From: Proteus appendicitidis
GTDB lineage: Bacteria > Pseudomonadota > Gammaproteobacteria > Enterobacterales > Enterobacteriaceae
DNA: 64,000 nt
Assembly: GCF_030271835.1 (NCBI RefSeq)
Contig: NZ_CP127389.1
Span: 2,392,001 to 2,456,000 of the forward strand
Direction of reading: 5' to 3'
Part shown: positions 16,662 to 28,852 of the stretch, in pieces
How positions within the stretch are numbered: position 1 is the first letter of the stretch
How the letters are laid out: the number at the start of each line of letters is the position of its first letter
Translations under genes and position numbers: made by a program
The notes under the pieces: generated by a model
Told to the model about the DNA's origin: nothing
Database searches by the model: none
The model's input: the letters and a program-made list of their open reading frames with translations, nothing else

Positions 16662-16667
16662 TATGGT

Positions 16668-18059
16668 TTAGCGACTAAATGTTTTTGGTTTTTGCACTTG
16701 CGTTATTGCATGTTGAGGAGCCATATCTTCACGCTCTATCACTTTCATTGCATTTTGCCCTGCTGGCAATGCTCGCTCAATCAATAACTCTGCATGAGAC
16801 TTCGCTAAAATCGATTGTAATTGCTGATGCTGATTGCACCAAATGGCATCAACATCTTTATCTCGCGTTGTATCACGTTGATGTGTTAACGCCACCGTTC
16901 TAGCTTGAAAACGCGCCTGTTTTCCGCCTAACTCTAAACCATAATCAGGAATTGTGGCATGAGACACAACAACTTGCCCTTTATCAAGCCATGCATTTAC
17001 GGCATTTTCATGCACCACATAACCTAATTCACTTAAACCAGCCAATACCGCCTCACATTGTTTTTTCATTGAAAGTTGCTGTTCATGCATTTCAATGGAC
17101 TGTTTTAACTTTATGATCATTACATCAAGTTGTTCATTGGTTGCTAATGAAGCAACCGCTTCTGTATCTCGACTAAGAGTCAGCATCTCTTTATCATCAA
17201 AGCTTTCAAGCTCTGCACATAAACGTGTTAATTCTTCCATTAATTCAATATGCTTCACGCTATTACGTAAGCTTTCAGCGATATTCATGATCATGGAATC
17301 TGCGAGTAAACGCAGTTTTTTGCGATTATCCTGTTCTTTATTACCACCCTGCTCTTTGCTATTAACAAGCTTTTGCATTTCAATAAGCTGGTTTGCATTA
17401 TCATTGGCTTCTGCTTCATTCCCCACCAGCCGTAATTTTTCAATCATCAATTCAATTTGATGACATTGTTGTGCAAAGGGGCTTTGAGGCTCGCCACTTT
17501 GCCATAATTGTTGGGTATATACAGATTGCGCTTTTAATTGCGTCAATAGTTCAGTTTGAGCGGGGCTGAGTTGCGCTTTTTGCGCTTCAATTTCACCCGT
17601 TACACGAAATAGCAATAAGCTAATGTCCTCGGCACTGATATTTTCACTCTGTTCAATTTCAGTGATTAAAATACTGTCAGATGCTAATTGTGATTTTAAT
17701 TGTTTTAACAGTGCCAATGATTTTTGTTTGCTTTGTTGGATATGACGTGCAAGCGCTTTTTCTTCAAGCACTTGTTCTCGTAGGTTTTTCATATCTTGTC
17801 GTAAGGGTGCAATAAACTGGCTTAATTTATCCGTTAATCCACTCACTGATTGAGCACTTAATGCATCCAATTGCTGATTATCTTTCACTAATGCATTAAA
17901 GGTAGATTCAATTTGGCTCACTCTTTCATCTTGATATGTGAGCTGTTCAACCAATGCCCGCCATTGCTTGAATTGTTTTTTGCTATTCGCTAATTGTCGA
18001 TGATAACGGATAACATTGGTTTCTTTTACAGAGATATAATGTACTGATGAACTCATCAT
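16668..18059 (-). CDS. Coiled-coil protein of unknown function, last gene of the AAA+/radical-SAM/helicase operon
   Basis: 463 residues. I do not recognise a family. It is dominated by Leu/Gln/Lys/Glu heptad-like stretches from about residue 25 to 340 (for example QSKQKSLALLKQLKSQL), so long coiled coils are expected. A small globular part follows at about 340-420 (ELGYVVHENAVNAWLDKGQ...IPDYGLELGG). No signal peptide, membrane segment or catalytic motif is visible. Its start overlaps the stop of the large helicase gene by four bases, so the two are translationally coupled and probably act together. It may be a structural or DNA-clamping partner, which is inference. Confidence 0.8.
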   Translation of the reverse strand: MMSSSVHYISVKETNVIRYHRQLANSKKQFKQWRALVEQLTYQDERVSQIESTFNALVKDNQQLDALSAQSVSGLTDKLSQFIAPLRQDMKNLREQVLEEKALARHIQQSKQKSLALLKQLKSQLASDSILITEIEQSENISAEDISLLLFRVTGEIEAQKAQLSPAQTELLTQLKAQSVYTQQLWQSGEPQSPFAQQCHQIELMIEKLRLVGNEAEANDNANQLIEMQKLVNSKEQGGNKEQDNRKKLRLLADSMIMNIAESLRNSVKHIELMEELTRLCAELESFDDKEMLTLSRDTEAVASLATNEQLDVMIIKLKQSIEMHEQQLSMKKQCEAVLAGLSELGYVVHENAVNAWLDKGQVVVSHATIPDYGLELGGKQARFQARTVALTHQRDTTRDKDVDAIWCNQHQQLQSILAKSHAELLIERALPAGQNAMKVIEREDMAPQHAITQVQKPKTFSR

Positions 18060-21000
18060 TCACTCACTTTTTCATTCAGTAAAGAGGCATGTTGTAAGGC
18101 TTCAAGAAGTTGTTGTTGGGCTTCTTGGCGATGATAAAACCATTGTGTCAACGAAACACGATAATGATAAGGCACCACTTTACGCAAAATATCTTTTCGC
18201 CATAGCTCACGCGCGCAAGCCTGAGATAACCACTCATGTTGTGGCATATCGCACTCAATTCCCATCAGTAATTTACCTTGGCCCTCATCTTCAATTAAAC
18301 AGTCAAAAGAGAAAATTCCCGCTTGTTGTGAGGGGGCAATATGATATCCCTGAGATTGAATAAAACGAGTGACATCGATAACAAATTGATCGTTTATCTG
18401 CTCTTGAGTTACCACACTAGCTTGAGTACGACATAAGCGGGCTAATAAACGTTTATTTTCCTCTTGTTTATTAATCTGATGGCAATAACTCGCGTAAGTT
18501 AAATAGCCTTGTAAGTAATCACGCGGAATTTCAGGGTGTTTATTGGTGCTTAATAAATCAGAGATTTCATCAATCGGCATTGATGACATGATCACCACTT
18601 GCTTTTTCGCTCTGGTGATAGCGACATTTAAACGACGCTCTCCTCCCGTTTGCCCTAATACACCAAAATTACGCCTAAAGGTACCTTGTGCATTACGACC
18701 AAACGTTGTCGAAAACAAAATAACATCTCGCTCGTCACCCTGTACATTTTCAACGTTTTTCACAAAAAACGACATATCTTCATCGTTATCCAAGCGCGCG
18801 CTTTCTTCAGTGTAAGCCTTTAAAAAATCCACATCATAGTCATTGCGATCACGAATATGCTGATTAATTAATTGAGCTTGTTTTTGGTTAAACGTCACCA
18901 CGCCGACAGACGGACGTTTATCAAAAGGCATCTGCCATAAGGTTGCTAAATGCTCAACGATCGCCAAAGCCTCTTTTTCATTGGTTTGATTGACATAAGT
19001 ACCATTGATAGCCATGAAATGCAGCGGTTTTACTGTATCAATGGTTTTTGCTGAGTGTTGAGCAGGAATATTTAGCCGATTCTCGTAAAAGGCATAATTT
19101 GAGAAATTAATTAGCTCTCGAAATGCTGAGCGATAATGAATATCTAACGTATGAATAGGCAATACTGTTCGAGCGAGGTGAAGTAAATCAGGGCAATGGC
19201 AAATTTGACTGGAGTCCCATTGTTCACTGCTTTTCTCTTGTTGTTCATCTTCCTCGTTATCGTTATCTTCATCGTCTTCATTTTCATTAAATTTACCGCT
19301 GAAAAAAGAGGAAGGCGGCATCTGTTTCTCATCACCACTTACAATAGCTTGTTTACCGCGATATAACGTTGGTAATGTAAATTCAATCGGCATTTGTGAG
19401 GCTTCATCATAAATAACACTGTCAAAAAGCCCTGCTTGTAAAGGTAATATTTGGCTTGCCACATCCGGTGTCATCAGCCAAATAGGACGTAATCTTAACA
19501 ATCCCAGTTGCGTTGCTTGATCAATAAATTCGCGTAACCGTAATGCTCTAGGCCCAGTTAAACGTGTTATTTTTTCCCAATGACGCGCATTTTCAATTCT
19601 CGATAATTCGATATTTTCCGTTAATAACGCACGATTAGTTTGCTGTAATTGCTGATAGCTCTCTGTCAGTTGCTCAATATATTTCTGCAATTGTTCAGAC
19701 TGAGTCTTTAATACCGGATTTTTTATTTCAATGTCCGTTCTGACAACGCTATAAAACAGATAGCTCAATGTCGCTTTTAAAAGATCGATAGGATCAGAGG
19801 ACGAGTTTTCATCAACCAACTGGCGTGATAATGCTAAAACTTGCCAATCATTGGGTGAAAAATGTGTCGTTCTTTGTCGGAATAACTGAAATTGACTTAA
19901 AGCAGGCAAGCTGAGTGCTAATTGCTGTAATTGGGTTGTCAGCAATTCACCTTTATTGATCGCACCATAAAATTGTTGATAGCAGAGATCGGTAAGTGTT
20001 TCTTGTAAACCCACTAGTTTATCAAGGCTAGTTTGCTGTGTTTTAGCACGAATAATGGCATTCTCAATTTCTAAACATTGCTGTTCAAAGCCCTGTTTTT
20101 TCGCTGATTGAATCGACTCAATAAAATGTTCAGGTTGAGGATATAACGCTAATAGCGCGATATCATCACCACAGGCTTTAAGCTGAGTCATCACCGTACT
20201 GATTGTGTTCTGCCACTGCGTATTTTGTTGTTCAAGGTGCTGTTCTAGCCCTAGTTGTTGATAAATAGGTTGCAACTCTTGATACAACAAACGCCATTGT
20301 TGTTCTGTGGTGATCGTTTTGTGTAGCGTTATATAATGTTCAACCTTATCTTCTTTACCACTTTGCGCAATAAAGTTTTTTAACTTACTGTTTCGACTAT
20401 AATAATAAGGATTTAAGAAACGTAAAAACGAAGGCTTTAATTTATCAGCTACGGCTCTTGATAACGTTGCTAATGTGGCATTATCTAACGGAGCAAGTAA
20501 GCGGAAAATCAAAGGATCACTACTTTCACTATCAATTTGCTGTAAACGTGTTGCTAATTGCTCTAATTGAGCAATCAACTGCTCTCCTTTATTTTGCTTA
20601 CCTTGTTCATTTAAAAACAGCGTTAGCCAACGCGATAAATTATTCCATTGTTGATCATTACGATTTTTTAATTGCTGTTTGCACTGCATGAGTGCTGTTT
20701 CGTGAGTGGTTAATTTATCGATTGTGATTTGTTGATAAGGTAAGCTATATGCCGTATCGCGCTGTTTTTCTGCTTCAATAAATCGCGTAATATTTTCATT
20801 AAATTGGCGATATAACGTGCTGTCAGGCAAAAATAAAGCAACGTTATTTAATGGCGTGTTTTCATAATTAATCGCATACCAATCTAAACCATATAACGTT
20901 AAATTATCGATAAGCTGAATAAACGTTGCTTTATTATATTGAGAAAGCAAGGTGTTTAATTCATCCGAACTTGTAGCCCACTTTTGTTGTGACTCTAATT

Positions 21001-24000
21001 CGAGTAATCCAGATAACACTTCTCGATATGAATAATCATATTGTTTATCAGTGAGATATAACGCTTTATAGTAAGAATCTAACGTTGTTTCATAAAATTG
21101 AATTAAGTTAAGTGTTCTATCACGATTAAACGGTGTGTCTTGCTTAACATCTGCGATCAGTTGTCGTTTATACTCTAATGCCAGTTGCTCTCTGATCGCT
21201 GAAATAATCTCTCGCCCTTTAGGGTTTTGATGAATAATCAATACCCTATCTTGCAAGCCATTAGCCACTAATCGTTTATAAACCACATCTAAAGCGGCAG
21301 GCTTTTGACACAGCACAAGCGCTGTTTTTTGTCGCCCTATTGCATCAGCAATTAGGTTAACAATAGTTTGGCTTTTCCCTGTTCCCGGAGGTCCTTCTAT
21401 CAATAATCCTGTTTGCTTTCTTGCCGCTTGAATAATGGTATTTTGAGAAGGATCTGCCAGCGACAACAAATAGTTATCTGTTAGTGTCTCTTGTGTTTCT
21501 AAAGCTTGTGCTGTCGTATTCACTTTCAGCATAGTGGCAAGAGCAGTGCCGTTAATAGGTAAATGGGCAATTTGTTGTAGATCAGCACTTATCATTTGCC
21601 CAATAAAAGAGGTGTGAAATAACACCGCAGAACAATGAATATAAGCACTGTTTTCTGGTATTTCTTCAGTTAATGAAGGTAAGGGACTTAATGTATGATC
21701 TGACGTGGTTAATAAAGACGAGAGCGTGAGCATCATTTCACTGACACTCAAGCCCGTTTGTGACATTAAGCTATCGAGTACTTTTTGCCATTCATTAACC
21801 GCAGGAATACCGACAAAGTTTGCAAGGGCTGGATTTAAACGTACCGATGCACGCTCTGTATCAAACGCAATTTGCACCGCACCTTGAGCGCCACCCAAAA
21901 TATTCATTGAAACAGGCCACAAGAAAAGCGGGGCAATACGTGGCTTTATTTTATTGGGTTGCGTATTTAGCACTAAAAAAGGAAAGCCTAAATACATGCC
22001 ATTAATACCCGTATCTCGTTGGTAAGACTGAGTATTAAGTTGTAAGATCCACAAGCGGTTATTTAATTTTTCACGTTGACGTAAGACTTCGCCTTCTAAT
22101 GAAAACAATCTTTTCTTACGGTTAATTAAATGCTCAAGTAAGTTTGTCGCTTTTTCATTATCAAAACAGCATTCGGTTAAATCAACGCGCCCTGCATTGG
22201 GTGTTAAACGCATTCTGACTAAATTACCGCGTTGACTTGTAGAAACTAATTTTTTAGCAAAAAAATGTAACACTTCTAAAATATATTTTTGCGATTCAGG
22301 TACTTGCCATTTCTCAACGGGAATACAAAGCATCACAATAATATGTTCAAGAGGCAATCTGCGCGTTAAGAGAAAATCATCAGCCCACCTATCAATAATA
22401 TCGTGATTAACGCGCTTAAAATCCCCTATTCTTTCGCTAAGCTGTTCAATAAGTTGATATCGCGGTGTGGCTAATAATACTTTAGCTTGTTGTTTATCAA
22501 ACGTCTTAATAGCCAGATCTCTGGCTAATTTAGCCGCATTATTCACCAGTGAATCTAACGTGATATATTGCCCAATCTCTGCACTTAATAACAAAATATA
22601 GTCATTTTCATGCATATTCTTACGATCGATTAAAGCACGTAGATTTTCATTATAAGTATCTGGAAATTCTGCACGAATAATTTCCCAACGCGCCACTAAT
22701 TGACTTAAAGAAGTGATTAACAAATAAAGCTGTAAGCTTTCTTCATTTAATGGAATACGTTGTTGCTGTGCTCTTTCACGAACAGTGCATTGACGATAAT
22801 AAAGCTGAACAAGCCAATGCGTTTCATCAATAGATTGCAGTTCAGTGGCAAGAGGCTGACAAATTAATTGATAACCTAATAAGGGGTGCTCTAAAAGCCA
22901 TGCAGGAGTGATGATCTCGCCACGATAAATCAATGGCATATTAGGATTTAAAATTCGTAGCGCGAGTGTAAAACGTAAATCTGGCTCAATATCTTGTTTT
23001 TCAACTAATGACTGCAATTGGGCAACTTGTTTGCCACTATTATCAAATTGGCTTAACCAAGTCGTGATTTCACCATGAATAAGTAATTCCGTTGCTTGAT
23101 CCCAGAATTGTGCTTGGGCAGCTACCATTGCAAATGCATCAGGTTGATTAAAAGGCTGATCTGCAAATTGAAATTGATAATATTGCTGATTTTCATTGTT
23201 GCGATTAATTTCTGGCGCTTGTACCGCTAAGCCTTGTAGCCACGCATTGACTTCATTCCATTGCCAGCGTTGAAAGCGATCACGACAGAGTAGGCCACGT
23301 AAAAGTAATTGAATATTAGGATCTAAATCATCTGGTAGCTCAACACCATTGGTCATTACTTGAATTAAAAACGCATTATCATGGATATGTTTAAAACAGG
23401 CTCCTTGCGTTAATTGCTCAAGTAAAATTATCCCTAAACTCCACCAATCTGATGCTGCCGAAACGCCACCCGCTAATATTTCTGGCGCACTATAACGTGA
23501 AATTTCAAGCGGAGAGACAATATCGAGATCAAATTCAGATAAACATGCCGAACCATATTCAATCACCACAATATCAAGGGGTTCGCGAGTGCGGATCATC
23601 AAATTGGAGGGCTTTAACGCACGATGACGCACACCATGTTCCGTTAATGCCGCAATAGCCGTACCTAATTCTGAGACTAAAGCATTAATTTCATTCGGTT
23701 GCCAAAAATCACCACGTTCAATAAATTGGCTTAGTGAACCACCATCTAATCGCTCGGTAACATGCCAAGCTCGGTTTTCCCATCGACCCGTTTCATAAAA
23801 CACGGGTATATGGTCAGTAGAGATCAGATTTAAGACTTGATAAATAGTAGGATCAGGCTCTTCACCTTTAAGATAGAGTGTTAATACGCCCTCTTGTTCT
23901 GTTTTGAGATTGCTTACGTTGTAGCGTTCTCTTTCGCTATTAATAGAATTGATACGTTGTTCAAGACGCCAATCACCAATCAACCTAAACGTTTCATTAT

Positions 24001-24310
24001 CAGTAACGTCGTTATTTTCAATCTCATCCGTTGGATCAGCACCACATTCAAAACAGATAAAATCGTCTTCTCCCATCAAATGTCCGTTGACACACTTGCG
24101 AGGCTGAAAATGATTAAGATCGGGGATTACCGTAGATGCCTCAATGGAAGGAGATGAAGATATAGGAGGAGATGGACGCCAACCTGATTCATGAATAGGT
24201 TCAATCGTTAGATCCCATCCACACGGTTTATCATTAATCTGTCCTGCACAGAAAATCTCAGTTAATTGGCGCTCCGTTTGGCAGTGAGGACAAAAACGTA
24301 TCATGGTCAT
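18056..24310 (-). CDS. Zinc ribbon - pseudokinase - SF1 helicase - nuclease fusion protein (2084 aa)
   Basis: Domains in order. Two zinc-ribbon-like knots: C7/C10/C21/C30 and C73-x3-H77...C86/C89. A protein-kinase-like domain (about 112-360) keeps APE (275-277) and DWWSLG (288-293), but HRD is HRA (HRALKPSN, 229-236) and DFG is EYG (251-253), so it looks like a pseudokinase. A long linker follows. The SF1 (Upf1/COG1112-like) helicase has Walker A GPPGTGKS at 973-980, a roughly 650-residue largely helical insert, DEAS at 1635, GDEKQMPPS, VQGDERDVI and LNVAITRAKK. The C-terminal restriction-endonuclease-like domain has D2003 and E2019-C-D2021, like the MTES_1575/Vsr-type nuclease group. It is third in a four-gene operon, 17 bases after the radical-SAM gene. 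Kinase-plus-helicase-plus-nuclease recalls Mokosh-type defence proteins, but the neighbours differ. Confidence 0.88.
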   Translation of the reverse strand: MTMIRFCPHCQTERQLTEIFCAGQINDKPCGWDLTIEPIHESGWRPSPPISSSPSIEASTVIPDLNHFQPRKCVNGHLMGEDDFICFECGADPTDEIENNDVTDNETFRLIGDWRLEQRINSINSERERYNVSNLKTEQEGVLTLYLKGEEPDPTIYQVLNLISTDHIPVFYETGRWENRAWHVTERLDGGSLSQFIERGDFWQPNEINALVSELGTAIAALTEHGVRHRALKPSNLMIRTREPLDIVVIEYGSACLSEFDLDIVSPLEISRYSAPEILAGGVSAASDWWSLGIILLEQLTQGACFKHIHDNAFLIQVMTNGVELPDDLDPNIQLLLRGLLCRDRFQRWQWNEVNAWLQGLAVQAPEINRNNENQQYYQFQFADQPFNQPDAFAMVAAQAQFWDQATELLIHGEITTWLSQFDNSGKQVAQLQSLVEKQDIEPDLRFTLALRILNPNMPLIYRGEIITPAWLLEHPLLGYQLICQPLATELQSIDETHWLVQLYYRQCTVRERAQQQRIPLNEESLQLYLLITSLSQLVARWEIIRAEFPDTYNENLRALIDRKNMHENDYILLLSAEIGQYITLDSLVNNAAKLARDLAIKTFDKQQAKVLLATPRYQLIEQLSERIGDFKRVNHDIIDRWADDFLLTRRLPLEHIIVMLCIPVEKWQVPESQKYILEVLHFFAKKLVSTSQRGNLVRMRLTPNAGRVDLTECCFDNEKATNLLEHLINRKKRLFSLEGEVLRQREKLNNRLWILQLNTQSYQRDTGINGMYLGFPFLVLNTQPNKIKPRIAPLFLWPVSMNILGGAQGAVQIAFDTERASVRLNPALANFVGIPAVNEWQKVLDSLMSQTGLSVSEMMLTLSSLLTTSDHTLSPLPSLTEEIPENSAYIHCSAVLFHTSFIGQMISADLQQIAHLPINGTALATMLKVNTTAQALETQETLTDNYLLSLADPSQNTIIQAARKQTGLLIEGPPGTGKSQTIVNLIADAIGRQKTALVLCQKPAALDVVYKRLVANGLQDRVLIIHQNPKGREIISAIREQLALEYKRQLIADVKQDTPFNRDRTLNLIQFYETTLDSYYKALYLTDKQYDYSYREVLSGLLELESQQKWATSSDELNTLLSQYNKATFIQLIDNLTLYGLDWYAINYENTPLNNVALFLPDSTLYRQFNENITRFIEAEKQRDTAYSLPYQQITIDKLTTHETALMQCKQQLKNRNDQQWNNLSRWLTLFLNEQGKQNKGEQLIAQLEQLATRLQQIDSESSDPLIFRLLAPLDNATLATLSRAVADKLKPSFLRFLNPYYYSRNSKLKNFIAQSGKEDKVEHYITLHKTITTEQQWRLLYQELQPIYQQLGLEQHLEQQNTQWQNTISTVMTQLKACGDDIALLALYPQPEHFIESIQSAKKQGFEQQCLEIENAIIRAKTQQTSLDKLVGLQETLTDLCYQQFYGAINKGELLTTQLQQLALSLPALSQFQLFRQRTTHFSPNDWQVLALSRQLVDENSSSDPIDLLKATLSYLFYSVVRTDIEIKNPVLKTQSEQLQKYIEQLTESYQQLQQTNRALLTENIELSRIENARHWEKITRLTGPRALRLREFIDQATQLGLLRLRPIWLMTPDVASQILPLQAGLFDSVIYDEASQMPIEFTLPTLYRGKQAIVSGDEKQMPPSSFFSGKFNENEDDEDNDNEEDEQQEKSSEQWDSSQICHCPDLLHLARTVLPIHTLDIHYRSAFRELINFSNYAFYENRLNIPAQHSAKTIDTVKPLHFMAINGTYVNQTNEKEALAIVEHLATLWQMPFDKRPSVGVVTFNQKQAQLINQHIRDRNDYDVDFLKAYTEESARLDNDEDMSFFVKNVENVQGDERDVILFSTTFGRNAQGTFRRNFGVLGQTGGERRLNVAITRAKKQVVIMSSMPIDEISDLLSTNKHPEIPRDYLQGYLTYASYCHQINKQEENKRLLARLCRTQASVVTQEQINDQFVIDVTRFIQSQGYHIAPSQQAGIFSFDCLIEDEGQGKLLMGIECDMPQHEWLSQACARELWRKDILRKVVPYHYRVSLTQWFYHRQEAQQQLLEALQHASLLNEKVSE

Positions 24311-24327
24311 CCTTTATTCCATCTCTC

Positions 24328-24957
24328 TTATCTTTTTATCTGTTTTAATTGAGTATCTTGTTGTGCTAATACTTCACGCAAACGAGCCATATCGCCCTTT
24401 TGAGGAATACCGGTAAGATAAATACGCCCTTGGTTATCCAGTGAGAGATCAAGCACTTTGTCTTCTTCGGTTACACTTCTGTCAAAAGCACTAAAACGCG
24501 CACGCCCCTTGGCTGTTAAACAATGAAGTTGCTGATTATCACTGCCTCGTAACATCAAACTTTGCGTATTTTCAACTTGATATCGACCACTCATTAACGC
24601 ATCAATTAAGCCTGACATTTTAGTGACTTGTGGCTCTATCTCATTCCAGTGATAACCACTGTAAATAAAAATATCTCCCGAAAATTGCTGACGCAAAGCC
24701 GTTAATAATGCATAAAGCGCTTCTGGTTGTTCAAAAGGTTCACCGCCAGAAATCGTAATACCATCAGCAAATGAAAACCAAGGGTGAATTTGTTGAATAA
24801 TCGCATCAACCGTGATGCTTGCGGTTTTTCTTTCCCATGTATCTGGCGATAAGCAGCCTTTACAGCGCAAAGAGCATCCTTGAAACCAGATACCAATTCG
24901 TTTTCCTGGCCCTAATGTTGTCACTGGGAAATGAGTTCGCGATAAACTGATCAACAT
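24328..24957 (-). CDS. Radical-SAM protein resembling NrdG/PflA activases
   Basis: 209 residues. The cluster motif is C28-x3-C32-x2-C35 (QGCSLRCKGC), followed by the SAM-binding TISGGEPFEQP near 75. WFQGCSLRCKGC and the size fit the activase subfamily, which makes glycyl radicals or small modifications. No glycyl-radical enzyme is in the window, so its substrate is unknown; it may modify a partner in the operon or a nucleotide. It overlaps the upstream AAA+ gene by seven bases and lies 17 bases before the helicase gene. Confidence 0.88.
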   Translation of the reverse strand: MLISLSRTHFPVTTLGPGKRIGIWFQGCSLRCKGCLSPDTWERKTASITVDAIIQQIHPWFSFADGITISGGEPFEQPEALYALLTALRQQFSGDIFIYSGYHWNEIEPQVTKMSGLIDALMSGRYQVENTQSLMLRGSDNQQLHCLTAKGRARFSAFDRSVTEEDKVLDLSLDNQGRIYLTGIPQKGDMARLREVLAQQDTQLKQIKR

Positions 24958-26795
24958 TCATTTACCTGTGGCACCAAAATAATATTGGTCATTTCACCTA
25001 TCTGAATATCTGCAATTTGATAAGCTTTTTCTATTGCCAAATCACTATCAAAAATAGCTCTTGAGAGTGGATTAATTAAATAAATCTCTAATTGGTTGCG
25101 AATACCACGACCGCCATTTGATAAATCAGATAAACAGTAGAATTTTAACGTCGATTTAGCCGTTTCAGATATCGACAATCTGAGTGATTGTTTATCAAGG
25201 CTAGATAAGATATTTGCGACCATTTGTTCAAATATCTGCTCCGCAACATCTTCTCGAATAAAATCAAATACAATAATATTTTCACCAATACGGTTTAATA
25301 ATTCAGGTCGATTTAAAACCAATTTAAAGTGGCGCTCTATTTCACTTTTTACTTTACGGCTGACATTTTCAAAAGGTTCATGAGGTAGAACATTCGCCAC
25401 TCTTTCACCATTATTATCAACATGGTAGATCCCAAGATTTGAAGTAAATATAATTAATGCTTCAGAAAAATAAACGCGATCACCACGCCCTGACGTTAAT
25501 ACCCCATCATCAATAATCTGTAGGAATTTATCCATTAAATGAGGATGCGCTTTTTCTATCTCATCAAATAACACAACGCTAAAAGGCTTTTCGCGAATCG
25601 CATTGGTTAATTCACCACCAGAGTCATAACCCACATAACCTGGAGGCGCACCAATCAAACGTTGATCAGCGTGTTCGGCACTAAATTCAGACATATCAAA
25701 GCGAATATAAGCACTTTCATCACCGAAAAGCAGTTGAGTAACCGTTTTTGCTAACTCAGTTTTCCCCACACCAGTTGGTCCGGCTAAAAACAGCACGCCT
25801 CGAGGTCTTCCCCCTTTATTGCTGCCCACGCCCGTCATTGCGCGCTTAATAATATCTAATAAATGCGTCACAGCATGTTGTTGCCCTTTAACGCGACGTT
25901 GTATAACTTGTGGTGCATTACGAATTTTTTGTTTATCGATTTTTTGCCACGGATCTTCGGTGATCCCCACTTTGTAACGTCTTACTGCATCACTAATTCG
26001 CGTTATTCCGACTTCTTCAATTCGCGCTAATTGCACAATCGCCACTAAATCTAGCAGTAATAGCCCTTCTGTTTCATCGATAAAATCATTAAGGATCAGT
26101 TCTTTTTCACTTTCAATAAGCGATGAAAACCCAGCCAATGACACCAATAAATTTGGCGCTAGCGCTCTGCGGATCTGACTATCGGGTTTTGCAACAGGAA
26201 TGGCTCGAATTCGAGGATTATTAACGGTAAACCAATCGGGTAAATCGGTTTCTTTTTCCACTACCCAAAAAACGCTATTAAAGAAAGGTTGATTATGTTC
26301 GCCAGCAGGTCTTGCTCTCGCTTGATGAGAAGTCACTAATGCTCGTGTAAATAAGCTATGTTCGGCAGGCATCAGATTATCACGATGAGAAAGCAAGCAA
26401 GAAGCGAAATCAATACATAACGCAATCGGCTGACCTGTTATTGTTTGCCATTTTTCTAATACACTATTTAAGCTATCAATATTACCTGATGCACGATCGC
26501 CCGTAACGGTTAATCCTAATTGTTGCATCAACATTGCGCCATCTTGCAAAGAGTGTGTAGGATTAGCGACCCATTGAAACCCCGTTAATGGCGTATAAGT
26601 GATGATATGAACGTAACCCACTTCATACAAACTGTTATAAAGTGTCTGGTTAAAAGGCAGTGGCGTTATAATATTAGGCGTAACTTCACTAGCTTGTAAG
26701 TCACGCACATTACCAAATAACACAAACTGGCTTTTCAATGGAATAAAACGAAGTAAATCGCGTAACCAGCGTGGTTTTTGAAAAGTAGTATTCAT
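24951..26795 (-). CDS. Clp-like AAA+ ATPase, first gene of the operon
   Basis: 614 residues. The N-terminal half (about 1-300) looks like a degenerate AAA module: a start WLRDLLRFIPLKSQFVLFGN without a clear Walker A, and LCIDFASCLLS as a possible relic Walker B. The second half is a ClpA/B D2-type AAA_2 domain: Walker A GPTGVGKT at 339-346, IGAPPGYVGYDSGGELTNAI pore region, Walker B VVLFDEIEKAH, TSNLG sensor 1, and a ClpB small domain to the end. It probably remodels or unfolds protein partners; no peptidase-docking loop was recognised. AAGGGATGAT precedes the ATG. It heads a tight four-gene minus-strand unit. Confidence 0.88.
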   Translation of the reverse strand: MNTTFQKPRWLRDLLRFIPLKSQFVLFGNVRDLQASEVTPNIITPLPFNQTLYNSLYEVGYVHIITYTPLTGFQWVANPTHSLQDGAMLMQQLGLTVTGDRASGNIDSLNSVLEKWQTITGQPIALCIDFASCLLSHRDNLMPAEHSLFTRALVTSHQARARPAGEHNQPFFNSVFWVVEKETDLPDWFTVNNPRIRAIPVAKPDSQIRRALAPNLLVSLAGFSSLIESEKELILNDFIDETEGLLLLDLVAIVQLARIEEVGITRISDAVRRYKVGITEDPWQKIDKQKIRNAPQVIQRRVKGQQHAVTHLLDIIKRAMTGVGSNKGGRPRGVLFLAGPTGVGKTELAKTVTQLLFGDESAYIRFDMSEFSAEHADQRLIGAPPGYVGYDSGGELTNAIREKPFSVVLFDEIEKAHPHLMDKFLQIIDDGVLTSGRGDRVYFSEALIIFTSNLGIYHVDNNGERVANVLPHEPFENVSRKVKSEIERHFKLVLNRPELLNRIGENIIVFDFIREDVAEQIFEQMVANILSSLDKQSLRLSISETAKSTLKFYCLSDLSNGGRGIRNQLEIYLINPLSRAIFDSDLAIEKAYQIADIQIGEMTNIILVPQVNEC

Positions 26796-26904
26796 ATCAT
26801 CCCTTACTGAAAATAAGCTATATCTTACCCTAATTCCTCGATATACAGGCTGTTTATATTAAAAGCAGTGTTAATTATTTGAAGAGTCCGATCATAAATA
26901 TGAG

Positions 26905-26927
26905 AATAGAGCCATAGCGGCTCTATT
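26905..26927 (-). terminator. Hairpin after thiD, before the AAA+ operon
   Basis: AATAGAGCC, loop ATAGC, GGCTCTATT. On the minus strand it follows the thiD stop, but the T-run is short, so read-through from thiD into the AAA+ operon is possible. Confidence 0.55.
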
Positions 26928-26953
26928 TAAGATAAGTGTTGTTGTAAGCAACA

Positions 26954-28207: not shown

Positions 28208-28852
28208 ATGAAAAATGAACCATCGCAACAGAATAATGGACAATCAATGCCTTATCTTATTCCTGATGCAGATTTTAATGTAAAGTTGAAAATTCACTCT
28301 AGAAATATTGATCATACAAAAGAATTCCTTGAAAAAGGTGTGGAAGACTTTGTATTACCAGAATATAGCATCCCTAATGGGTATCGTTTTGTTAAATCTT
28401 TAAAACGCAATCAATATCGTTTAATTTCAACTACCAATGCACCTGAAACAGTTTATCTTGTAGAGCTTATTTTTCGCAAAGACATTATATTTAGTAAAAC
28501 AACATGTACCCAAGTTAAAGTATGGCGAACTGTTTCTGAAGAACATGATATTGCGACAAGATATCTCCCTAGACACTTCTTTAGTTATTTACTTAAAACA
28601 TACAACATTGTTGTTTCTGATGAAGAGCAAACCGGTGCAGGTAAGCGTTTTTGGGAAACAATGATTGATTGGGCTTTTACTGCTCACCTTAATGTTTATA
28701 TTTCAGATGGAACAGAAGAAAACCGTCCTCTAACAGTAGTGAAAGATACTGATGATCTTTATGAAAATTGGGACGCTTTCTGCTGGGGTAAGGATCGTGA
28801 TACTCATACTCACCGACTCCTTGTTATTAGCCAAGAAAAATTATCTCAATAA
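28208..28852 (+). CDS. Hypothetical protein, 214 aa
   Basis: I do not recognise this family with confidence. It is soluble, without signal peptide or membrane segment, with many aromatic and charged residues. Notable stretches are GYRFVKSLKRNQYRLIS, VSDEEQTGAGKRFWETMIDW and a C-terminal FCWGKDRDTHTHRLLVIS. The start is well supported by GCGGAGGGG ten bases before the ATG. It is a lone gene between the thiD leader and pagP. A hairpin (28869-28909) follows the stop. It may be an accessory gene of phage or island origin, which is only a guess. Confidence 0.75.
   Translation: MKNEPSQQNNGQSMPYLIPDADFNVKLKIHSRNIDHTKEFLEKGVEDFVLPEYSIPNGYRFVKSLKRNQYRLISTTNAPETVYLVELIFRKDIIFSKTTCTQVKVWRTVSEEHDIATRYLPRHFFSYLLKTYNIVVSDEEQTGAGKRFWETMIDWAFTAHLNVYISDGTEENRPLTVVKDTDDLYENWDAFCWGKDRDTHTHRLLVISQEKLSQ

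Follow-up and report, generated by a model that had tools for sequence, protein, structure and literature searches.

A conserved four-gene unit joining an Hsp100-type ATPase, a radical-SAM protein, a helicase-nuclease fusion and a coiled-coil protein in Proteus: a candidate undescribed conflict system

What task falls to a radical-SAM (rSAM) protein whose gene is tied to that of an Hsp100-type unfoldase, in one operon with a helicase-nuclease fusion? The question is raised by a window of 64,000 nucleotides from Proteus appendicitidis (NZ_CP127389.1, positions 2,392,001 to 2,456,000), part of a complete 4.1-Mb genome whose closest named relatives are Proteus. A sequence-only reading of this window had singled out four minus-strand genes, overlapping by 7 and 4 bases and separated once by 17 bases, for a Clp-D2-type AAA+ ATPase, an NrdG-like rSAM protein, a 2084-aa helicase fusion and a coiled-coil protein. 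The open reading frames (ORFs), their strand and their lengths were confirmed, and a Pfam scan upheld the component identities (coordinates in Table 1). With a probability of about one half, we read the four genes as an undescribed conflict system in which the 2084-aa protein would combine the functions of sensor and effector, while the Hsp100/rSAM pair would provide its switch and maturation engine. The conflict would probably be anti-phage or directed against foreign nucleic acid.

To assess linkage, named genomes were searched with the rSAM profile alone and the best 80 loci were kept (at least 80 exist), with flanks of up to 10 kb. The AAA gene adjoins the rSAM gene in 79/80 of these best loci, 78 have a detected helicase gene and 71 a detected coiled-coil gene, to which that of L073 was added by eye; the contig stops before the coiled-coil position in L029, L037, L039, L046, L053, L059 and L076. 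Once three plasmid loci are included, all 74 loci in which all four genes were detected have the same order and strand. The AAA-rSAM gap is at most 7 bases in 82/82 loci, and gaps above 50 bases occur once between rSAM and helicase (1/81) and four times between helicase and coiled coil (4/74), the overlaps at these loci being upper bounds because ORFs were called mechanically. By title, the loci carry seven phylum labels (Pseudomonadota, Chlamydiota, Acidobacteriota, Cyanobacteriota, Verrucomicrobiota, Bacteroidota and Candidatus Melainabacteria). Pairwise distances of the four families, computed on 65 rows with all four proteins full-length (64 loci and the window), correlate with r of 0.81-0.95, highest for helicase and coiled coil, which we take as supporting evidence only because related sequences are not independent. 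The sequence-only reading had staked its claim beforehand on co-occurrence of the four genes in other genomes, and they do co-occur: the four genes are one unit, conserved as such.

Within the genus, thiD was found in 20/20 genomes, with the AAA gene alongside it in 7 and fbaB directly alongside in the other 13; the helicase is carried by 7/20, the window's own genome included. Comparison of the junctions delimits an insert of about 10.3 kb including the four genes, between the fbaB terminator and the end of thiD, with no integrase gene inside; neither end shows a target duplication. Across the genus, the insertion is clean and the unit is present or absent as one block. In one congener (L167) the thiD match falls into two overlapping pieces, likely a frameshift. 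Two Providencia loci (L009 and L015) have flanking ORFs in common and a third (L010) is flanked by others; since the flanks differ, so do the insertion sites. The unit is also found on plasmids, and the helicase was detected in 8/60 relatives (own genome included).

The 2084-aa protein matches Pkinase, DUF4011, AAA_11, AAA_12 and MTES_1575 in Pfam. The kinase domain looks dead. The motifs of the helicase and of the Vsr-like nuclease are intact; the nuclease residues Asp2003, Glu2019-Cys-Asp2021, His2025 and Arg2034 are kept in 70-75 of 75 rows. The helicase gene is broken into two ORFs in L011, L044 and L051, and the AAA gene likewise in L029 (frameshift or assembly error).

The AAA+ protein (Pfam AAA_2 and ClpB_D2-small) is an Hsp100 of two rings, the first degenerate and the second a threading ring. 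Its single Walker A motif lies at residue 339, and a nucleotide-binding first ring was not found. Unlike the Hsp100 proteins ClpB and ClpC, it lacks a Walker A motif in the first ring, leaves no space for a Clp N-domain and carries no I[GL][FL] ClpP-docking motif; it scores under the ClpB and ClpA equivalog cut-offs. A profile of the first ring matched 8/398 genomes of a Pseudomonadota sample and, at E 1e-8, 74/296 genomes of a Bacteroidota sample (best besides the centre genome, 3.6e-20). The three Bacteroidota matches inspected of these 74 (L192, L195 and L204, same phylum as L085) were rejected as the unit's AAA: each is another kind of protein, 570-626 aa long, that matches the profile with its N-terminal part, and no rSAM ORF was seen within the short stretch inspected. 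In L192 its gene adjoins a probable class I fructose-bisphosphate aldolase gene. Among 147 matching phage records, none reached 80% coverage of the AAA protein.

The coiled-coil protein has no Pfam match above cut-off, and is composed of an N-terminal strand, long helices and a C-terminal alpha/beta domain. A sequence search with it returned 116 proteins; those with an organism name belong to Proteus, Providencia and Xenorhabdus, and the wider family was recognised through gene order alone. Its N-terminus reads MSGPK in 58/72 rows, LSGPK or VSGPK in 4 more, and MSSS or MSAS in 9 rows including the window (MSSS). We considered the MSGPK start as a substrate of the rSAM protein and did not adopt it, the segment being a strand in the model; its conservation may be structural, because this strand aligns along with the C-terminal domain.

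The rSAM and AAA genes recur together with other partners. A plasmid search with the AAA protein of an Aristaeella (Clostridia) plasmid yielded 19 records at 80% coverage, of which we inspected nine (L006, L007, L008, L168 and L170-L174) along with a Leisingera record at 54% coverage (L175). An rSAM gene was present in the stretch in 10/10, about 9 kb distant in L170. Five types were distinguished. Type A is the four-gene unit as in the window. Type B runs helicase, PIN, hypothetical protein, AAA, rSAM (Moellerella, Acinetobacter, Photobacterium, Polaromonas and Leisingera); the Moellerella helicase, the one protein scanned, has MkoA as its best model in PADLOC-DB of 2023 (340 bits). Type C, on the Aristaeella plasmid (L168), begins with a PDC-S37-like helicase-restriction endonuclease (1308 bits), a kinase, a coiled-coil-like protein also starting MSGPK and a Zn-ribbon-FHA protein, and continues with rSAM (39% identical), AAA (38%, nearly full length), a phosphatase (weak PP2C_2 match), DUF6273 and a kinase. 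In type D, on a Geminocystis plasmid (L170), double-GTPases accompany AAA and rSAM, and type E (L185) comprises an intact-looking kinase, resembling the pseudokinase region and the part following it (E 3e-16), with rSAM, AAA and a coiled-coil candidate. From the comparison of types A to E, we therefore consider AAA and rSAM a recurring pair.

Several details of these plasmids are recorded here on their own account. The double-GTPase array of L170 (3584-9299; PF19975/PF19993) lies between the rSAM and AAA genes and also holds two uncharacterised proteins with a common YxRTYEVDFRFI stretch. In the Acinetobacter plasmid (L172:14733-16715), the PIN-type unit is followed by an annotated AAA ATPase, a radical SAM protein and a hypothetical protein, and in Photobacterium (L173:1452-3520) two further radical-SAM genes lie upstream of the unit.

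How might such a unit work? We infer a nucleic-acid target, a defence role, an order of action and a polypeptide substrate of the rSAM protein as follows. The SF1 (superfamily 1) helicase would load onto foreign or abnormal nucleic acid and the Vsr-like nuclease would do the cutting, with the Zn ribbons and the pseudokinase keeping the 2084-aa protein inactive or binding a partner or ligand, and the coiled-coil protein serving as an adaptor that links the parts. The Hsp100 would thread a member of the complex, at a first guess the coiled-coil adaptor, and unfolding would thereby switch the assembly. Hsp100 and rSAM protein would act as one, the latter adding a radical-made modification to a partner polypeptide exposed by the unfoldase. 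In favour of the conflict-system reading we count the fixed gene order with its tight spacing, the correlated distances, the conserved helicase and nuclease residues, the two-ring fold with its threading loop, the clean insertion in 7/20 congeners, the differing Providencia flanks, the plasmid copies, the grouping of Legionella with two Chlamydiota (under long-branch warnings), the recurrence of AAA and rSAM with other nuclease modules, and the chaperone switches proposed for other conflict systems (PMC7159879). A bolder form of this proposal, which we offer tentatively, is an 'unfold-and-modify' engine, in which an Hsp100 with a dead first ring threads a client past an NrdG-like rSAM enzyme that edits its backbone or side chain, as the constant core of a class of conflict systems with exchanged effectors (Vsr-nuclease helicase, Mokosh-like helicase with PIN, kinase/FHA/phosphatase sets, double-GTPases). 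We know of no earlier case of ATP-driven unfolding feeding a radical-SAM protein-modifying enzyme.

A number of observations weigh against a conflict system of this kind. The ten neighbours scanned in the window are housekeeping or unnamed genes. From 39 loci we collected 202 flanking ORFs and scanned 108 of them (mechanical ORFs, some not genes), and PADLOC gave 7 model rows with one member each, a figure with no control run beside it. At E 1e-150 only 4/398 Pseudomonadota genomes match (own genome included, one match partial), and megablast found no near-identical DNA in 5,426 E. coli genomes. A tree of AAA and helicase (72 rows, quick method, long-branch warnings) largely follows bacterial families, apart from Legionella, which under those warnings groups with two Chlamydiota, and Stenotrophomonas, which falls inside Pseudomonas. 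A Microvirga plasmid (L169:10300-15002) carries a transposase followed by a C-terminal piece of the helicase and the downstream hypothetical gene, with neither AAA nor rSAM annotated in the stretch, and looks like a decayed unit. In a Verrucomicrobia metagenome-assembled genome (L088:5113-6069), an rSAM gene of the family stands with the other genes undetected upstream, on a contig that ends about 300 bases past it. Homology of the coiled-coil protein to the PIN-type protein was not found (hhalign probability 0.2 and 0.4), and to the L168 and L185 counterparts it is weak (E 0.01 and 0.006, probability 4 and 6). No phage test or phenotype of the unit was found in the literature, and passages of one paper describe the P. 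aeruginosa DUF4011 gene as core, marking the edge of the defence hotspot cDHS1 (PMC10250203). We take that gene to be the helicase of the unit, and the same unit would then be present there. Listed P. aeruginosa proteins are 81-82% identical to a Pseudomonas AAA of the unit (query L056). The PAO1 counterparts are presumably PA2725-PA2728, and no paper on the function of these loci was found in the literature listing. The earlier interpretation stands as regards a conserved unit that no tested named system fits fully, and defence would be a putative role: few flanking ORFs match defence models. On location in defence islands, the observations are those 7 rows and the hotspot edge in P. aeruginosa.

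The main rival, possible though doubtful, is that the unit is a machine for the cell's own stress response or repair and not for defence, its helicase-nuclease processing damaged or stalled DNA/RNA complexes and its Hsp100 stripping proteins. The core status of the P. aeruginosa gene in those passages, the housekeeping neighbours and the largely family-coherent tree would suit such a machine, as would an intact helicase together with a nuclease, but not its absence from 13/20 congeners with a clean empty site, its rarity in the phylum, its presence on plasmids or a nuclease module that varies between types.

Unlikely, in our view, is a system for phospho-signalling or regulated assembly that has lost its working kinase in this lineage, nucleic-acid cutting being a side branch of it. 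The intact-looking kinase beside rSAM-AAA in L185, the FHA domain and weak PP2C match in L168 and the double-GTPases of L170 point that way, whereas the four-gene type pairs a degenerate kinase with intact helicase and nuclease.

The remaining alternatives turn on the rSAM protein. It matches Fer4_12 in Pfam and has the motifs CxxxCxxC, GGEP and GSxNQ, the last common to the cell's NrdG, intact in all 19 aligned sequences. Its best models are NrdG and PFL activases, with which it shares the Fer4_12 core, CxxxCxxC and GSxNQ, but it scores 95.2 bits on NrdG TIGR02491, under the 126.1-bit cut-off, and has an extra C-terminal part absent from the cell's 154-aa NrdG. Among viral contigs scanned with the rSAM protein 44 relatives were found; the strongest match has 31% identity, and the top identity over any stretch is 43%.

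To look for a glycyl-radical partner, we chose 12 of 83 loci from genera that are mostly aerobic and searched 11 genomes (L060 excluded) for PF01228 and PF13597. Neither family was found in any of the 11 carrier genomes (0/11 for each, genome completeness not stated), while E. coli and other control genomes match. A glycyl-radical partner of either family was therefore rejected for these carriers, in which the rSAM protein has another role. The window's own genome has NrdD and other glycyl-radical enzymes; an activase ORF lies near 3/4 of those fetched (L089, L090 and L091), including a separate NrdG near its NrdD. The motif R[VT]xG[YFW] is absent from all four window proteins.

We consider it quite improbable that the rSAM protein is itself the effector, making a nucleotide- or peptide-type product as viperins do while the other three genes sense and regulate. 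Its intact motifs and a weak pVip (viperin) match of the Moellerella PIN-type rSAM (24 bits) favour this, but the window protein reaches only 11.7 bits with pVip (E 0.032), short of a match, its best models are activases, and the conserved helicase and nuclease, both intact, already provide an effector. That it is simply an NrdG-like activase next to a helicase operon unrelated to it, serving a glycyl-radical enzyme elsewhere in the cell, would agree with its NrdG score and with the enzymes of the window's genome, but is contradicted for the 11 carriers and is highly improbable overall given the separate NrdG and the AAA-rSAM linkage.

Table 1. Features of the four-gene unit in the window (positions of the window; residues of the respective protein)
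Feature	Position	Strand	Remarks
Inserted unit, approximate extent, fbaB (with its terminator) to thiD	16664..26930	.	empty site in 13/20 genus genomes
AAA+ gene	24951..26795	-	first gene of operon, 614 aa
Degenerate first AAA ring, residues 5-270	25986..26783	-	without Walker A
Second AAA ring, residues 284-610	24966..25946	-	Walker A GPTGVGKT, Walker B VVLFDE, threading pore loop PPGYVGY
rSAM gene	24328..24957	-	209 aa
Zn-ribbon/pseudokinase/DUF4011/SF1 helicase/Vsr-like nuclease fusion gene	18056..24310	-	2084 aa
Two presumed Zn ribbons	24035..24310	-	conserved Cys7, 10, 21, 30 and Cys73, His77, Cys86, 89
Pseudokinase domain, residues about 112-360	23231..23977	-	Pkinase match, degenerate
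DUF4011, residues 743-831	21818..22084	-	Pfam
SF1 helicase core with long insert, residues 953-1910	18581..21454	-	Walker A GPPGTGKS, Walker B YDEAS, later motifs present
MTES_1575 (Vsr-like) nuclease	18095..18385	-	Pfam
Coiled-coil protein gene	16668..18059	-	463 aa

Beyond the unit, a hypothetical gene of 214 aa without NCBIfam match adjoins thiD (window 28208-28852); in congeners its counterpart is 45-100% identical or undetected within a short stretch.

If the conflict-system reading is true, a scattered, tightly linked operon would be a distinct system and belong, as one branch, to a larger class, and non-viperin radical-SAM chemistry and a threading unfoldase would join the helicase-nuclease conflict systems; the P. 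aeruginosa counterpart has already been used to mark the boundary of a defence hotspot. Even without a defence role, there remains an rSAM protein locked to an Hsp100 in carriers without known glycyl-radical enzymes, for which we know of no job, and the four-gene unit makes the question of its role testable.

How does the unit compare with named systems? No description of it was found in the open-access PMC literature, as far as the parts of papers covered go; the nearest notice is in PMC10250203. The unit is not mentioned in the passages covered of PMC10853773, PMC4158269, PMC13092281 and PMC12629846, and PMC12935923 is, from its passages, a Providencia defence survey. As the sequence-only reading had suspected, no tested named system fits fully: the scores fall short of the Hhe, ProA, NrdG and ClpB cut-offs, and the PLD domain of Mokosh is absent. 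The best PADLOC model for the 2084-aa protein is PDC-S37 (494 bits, residues 933-2077 of 2084 on profile positions 275-1343 of 1550), a single-gene PADLOC candidate as we understand the name; by its own threshold, PADLOC may call the protein. The match covers the helicase-nuclease half only, and the Zn ribbons, pseudokinase, AAA, rSAM and coiled coil fall outside it. In NCBIfam, the same half scores 299.8 bits on the anti-phage protein Hhe (NF042953) against a cut-off of 2000 and 471.1 bits on ProA (NF058533) against 1500.

Mokosh has a kinase-like domain, and the 2084-aa protein likewise combines such a domain, degenerate here, with an SF1 helicase (Pkinase, AAA_11/AAA_12). We know of no Hsp100, rSAM or coiled-coil partner in Mokosh. 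The window helicase scores 157 bits on MkoA (best stretch, residues 1622-1912) and 95 bits on MkoC, below both PDC-S37 and Hhe, and the PIN-type cousin is closer to MkoA. The likeness first drawn to Mokosh is borne out in the combination of kinase-like domain, helicase and nuclease, but it is loose: passages on Mokosh describe PLD-like (types I and II) and NERD (type I) domains (PMC10952713), whereas in the Pfam scan the four proteins of the unit carry the Vsr-like MTES_1575 and no PLD family.

A further comparison is with the conflict systems in which, according to passages of PMC7159879, AAA+ chaperones are proposed as threshold switches with changing effectors. Those systems use MoxR-vWA or GTPases, and the one radical-SAM effector described in these passages, presumed to modify a peptide that has its own gene, is a component of FtsH ternary systems. 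What the unit and its cousins have in common with them, as far as those passages go, is an AAA+ switch joined to changing effectors, with kinase/PP2C and GTPase variants.

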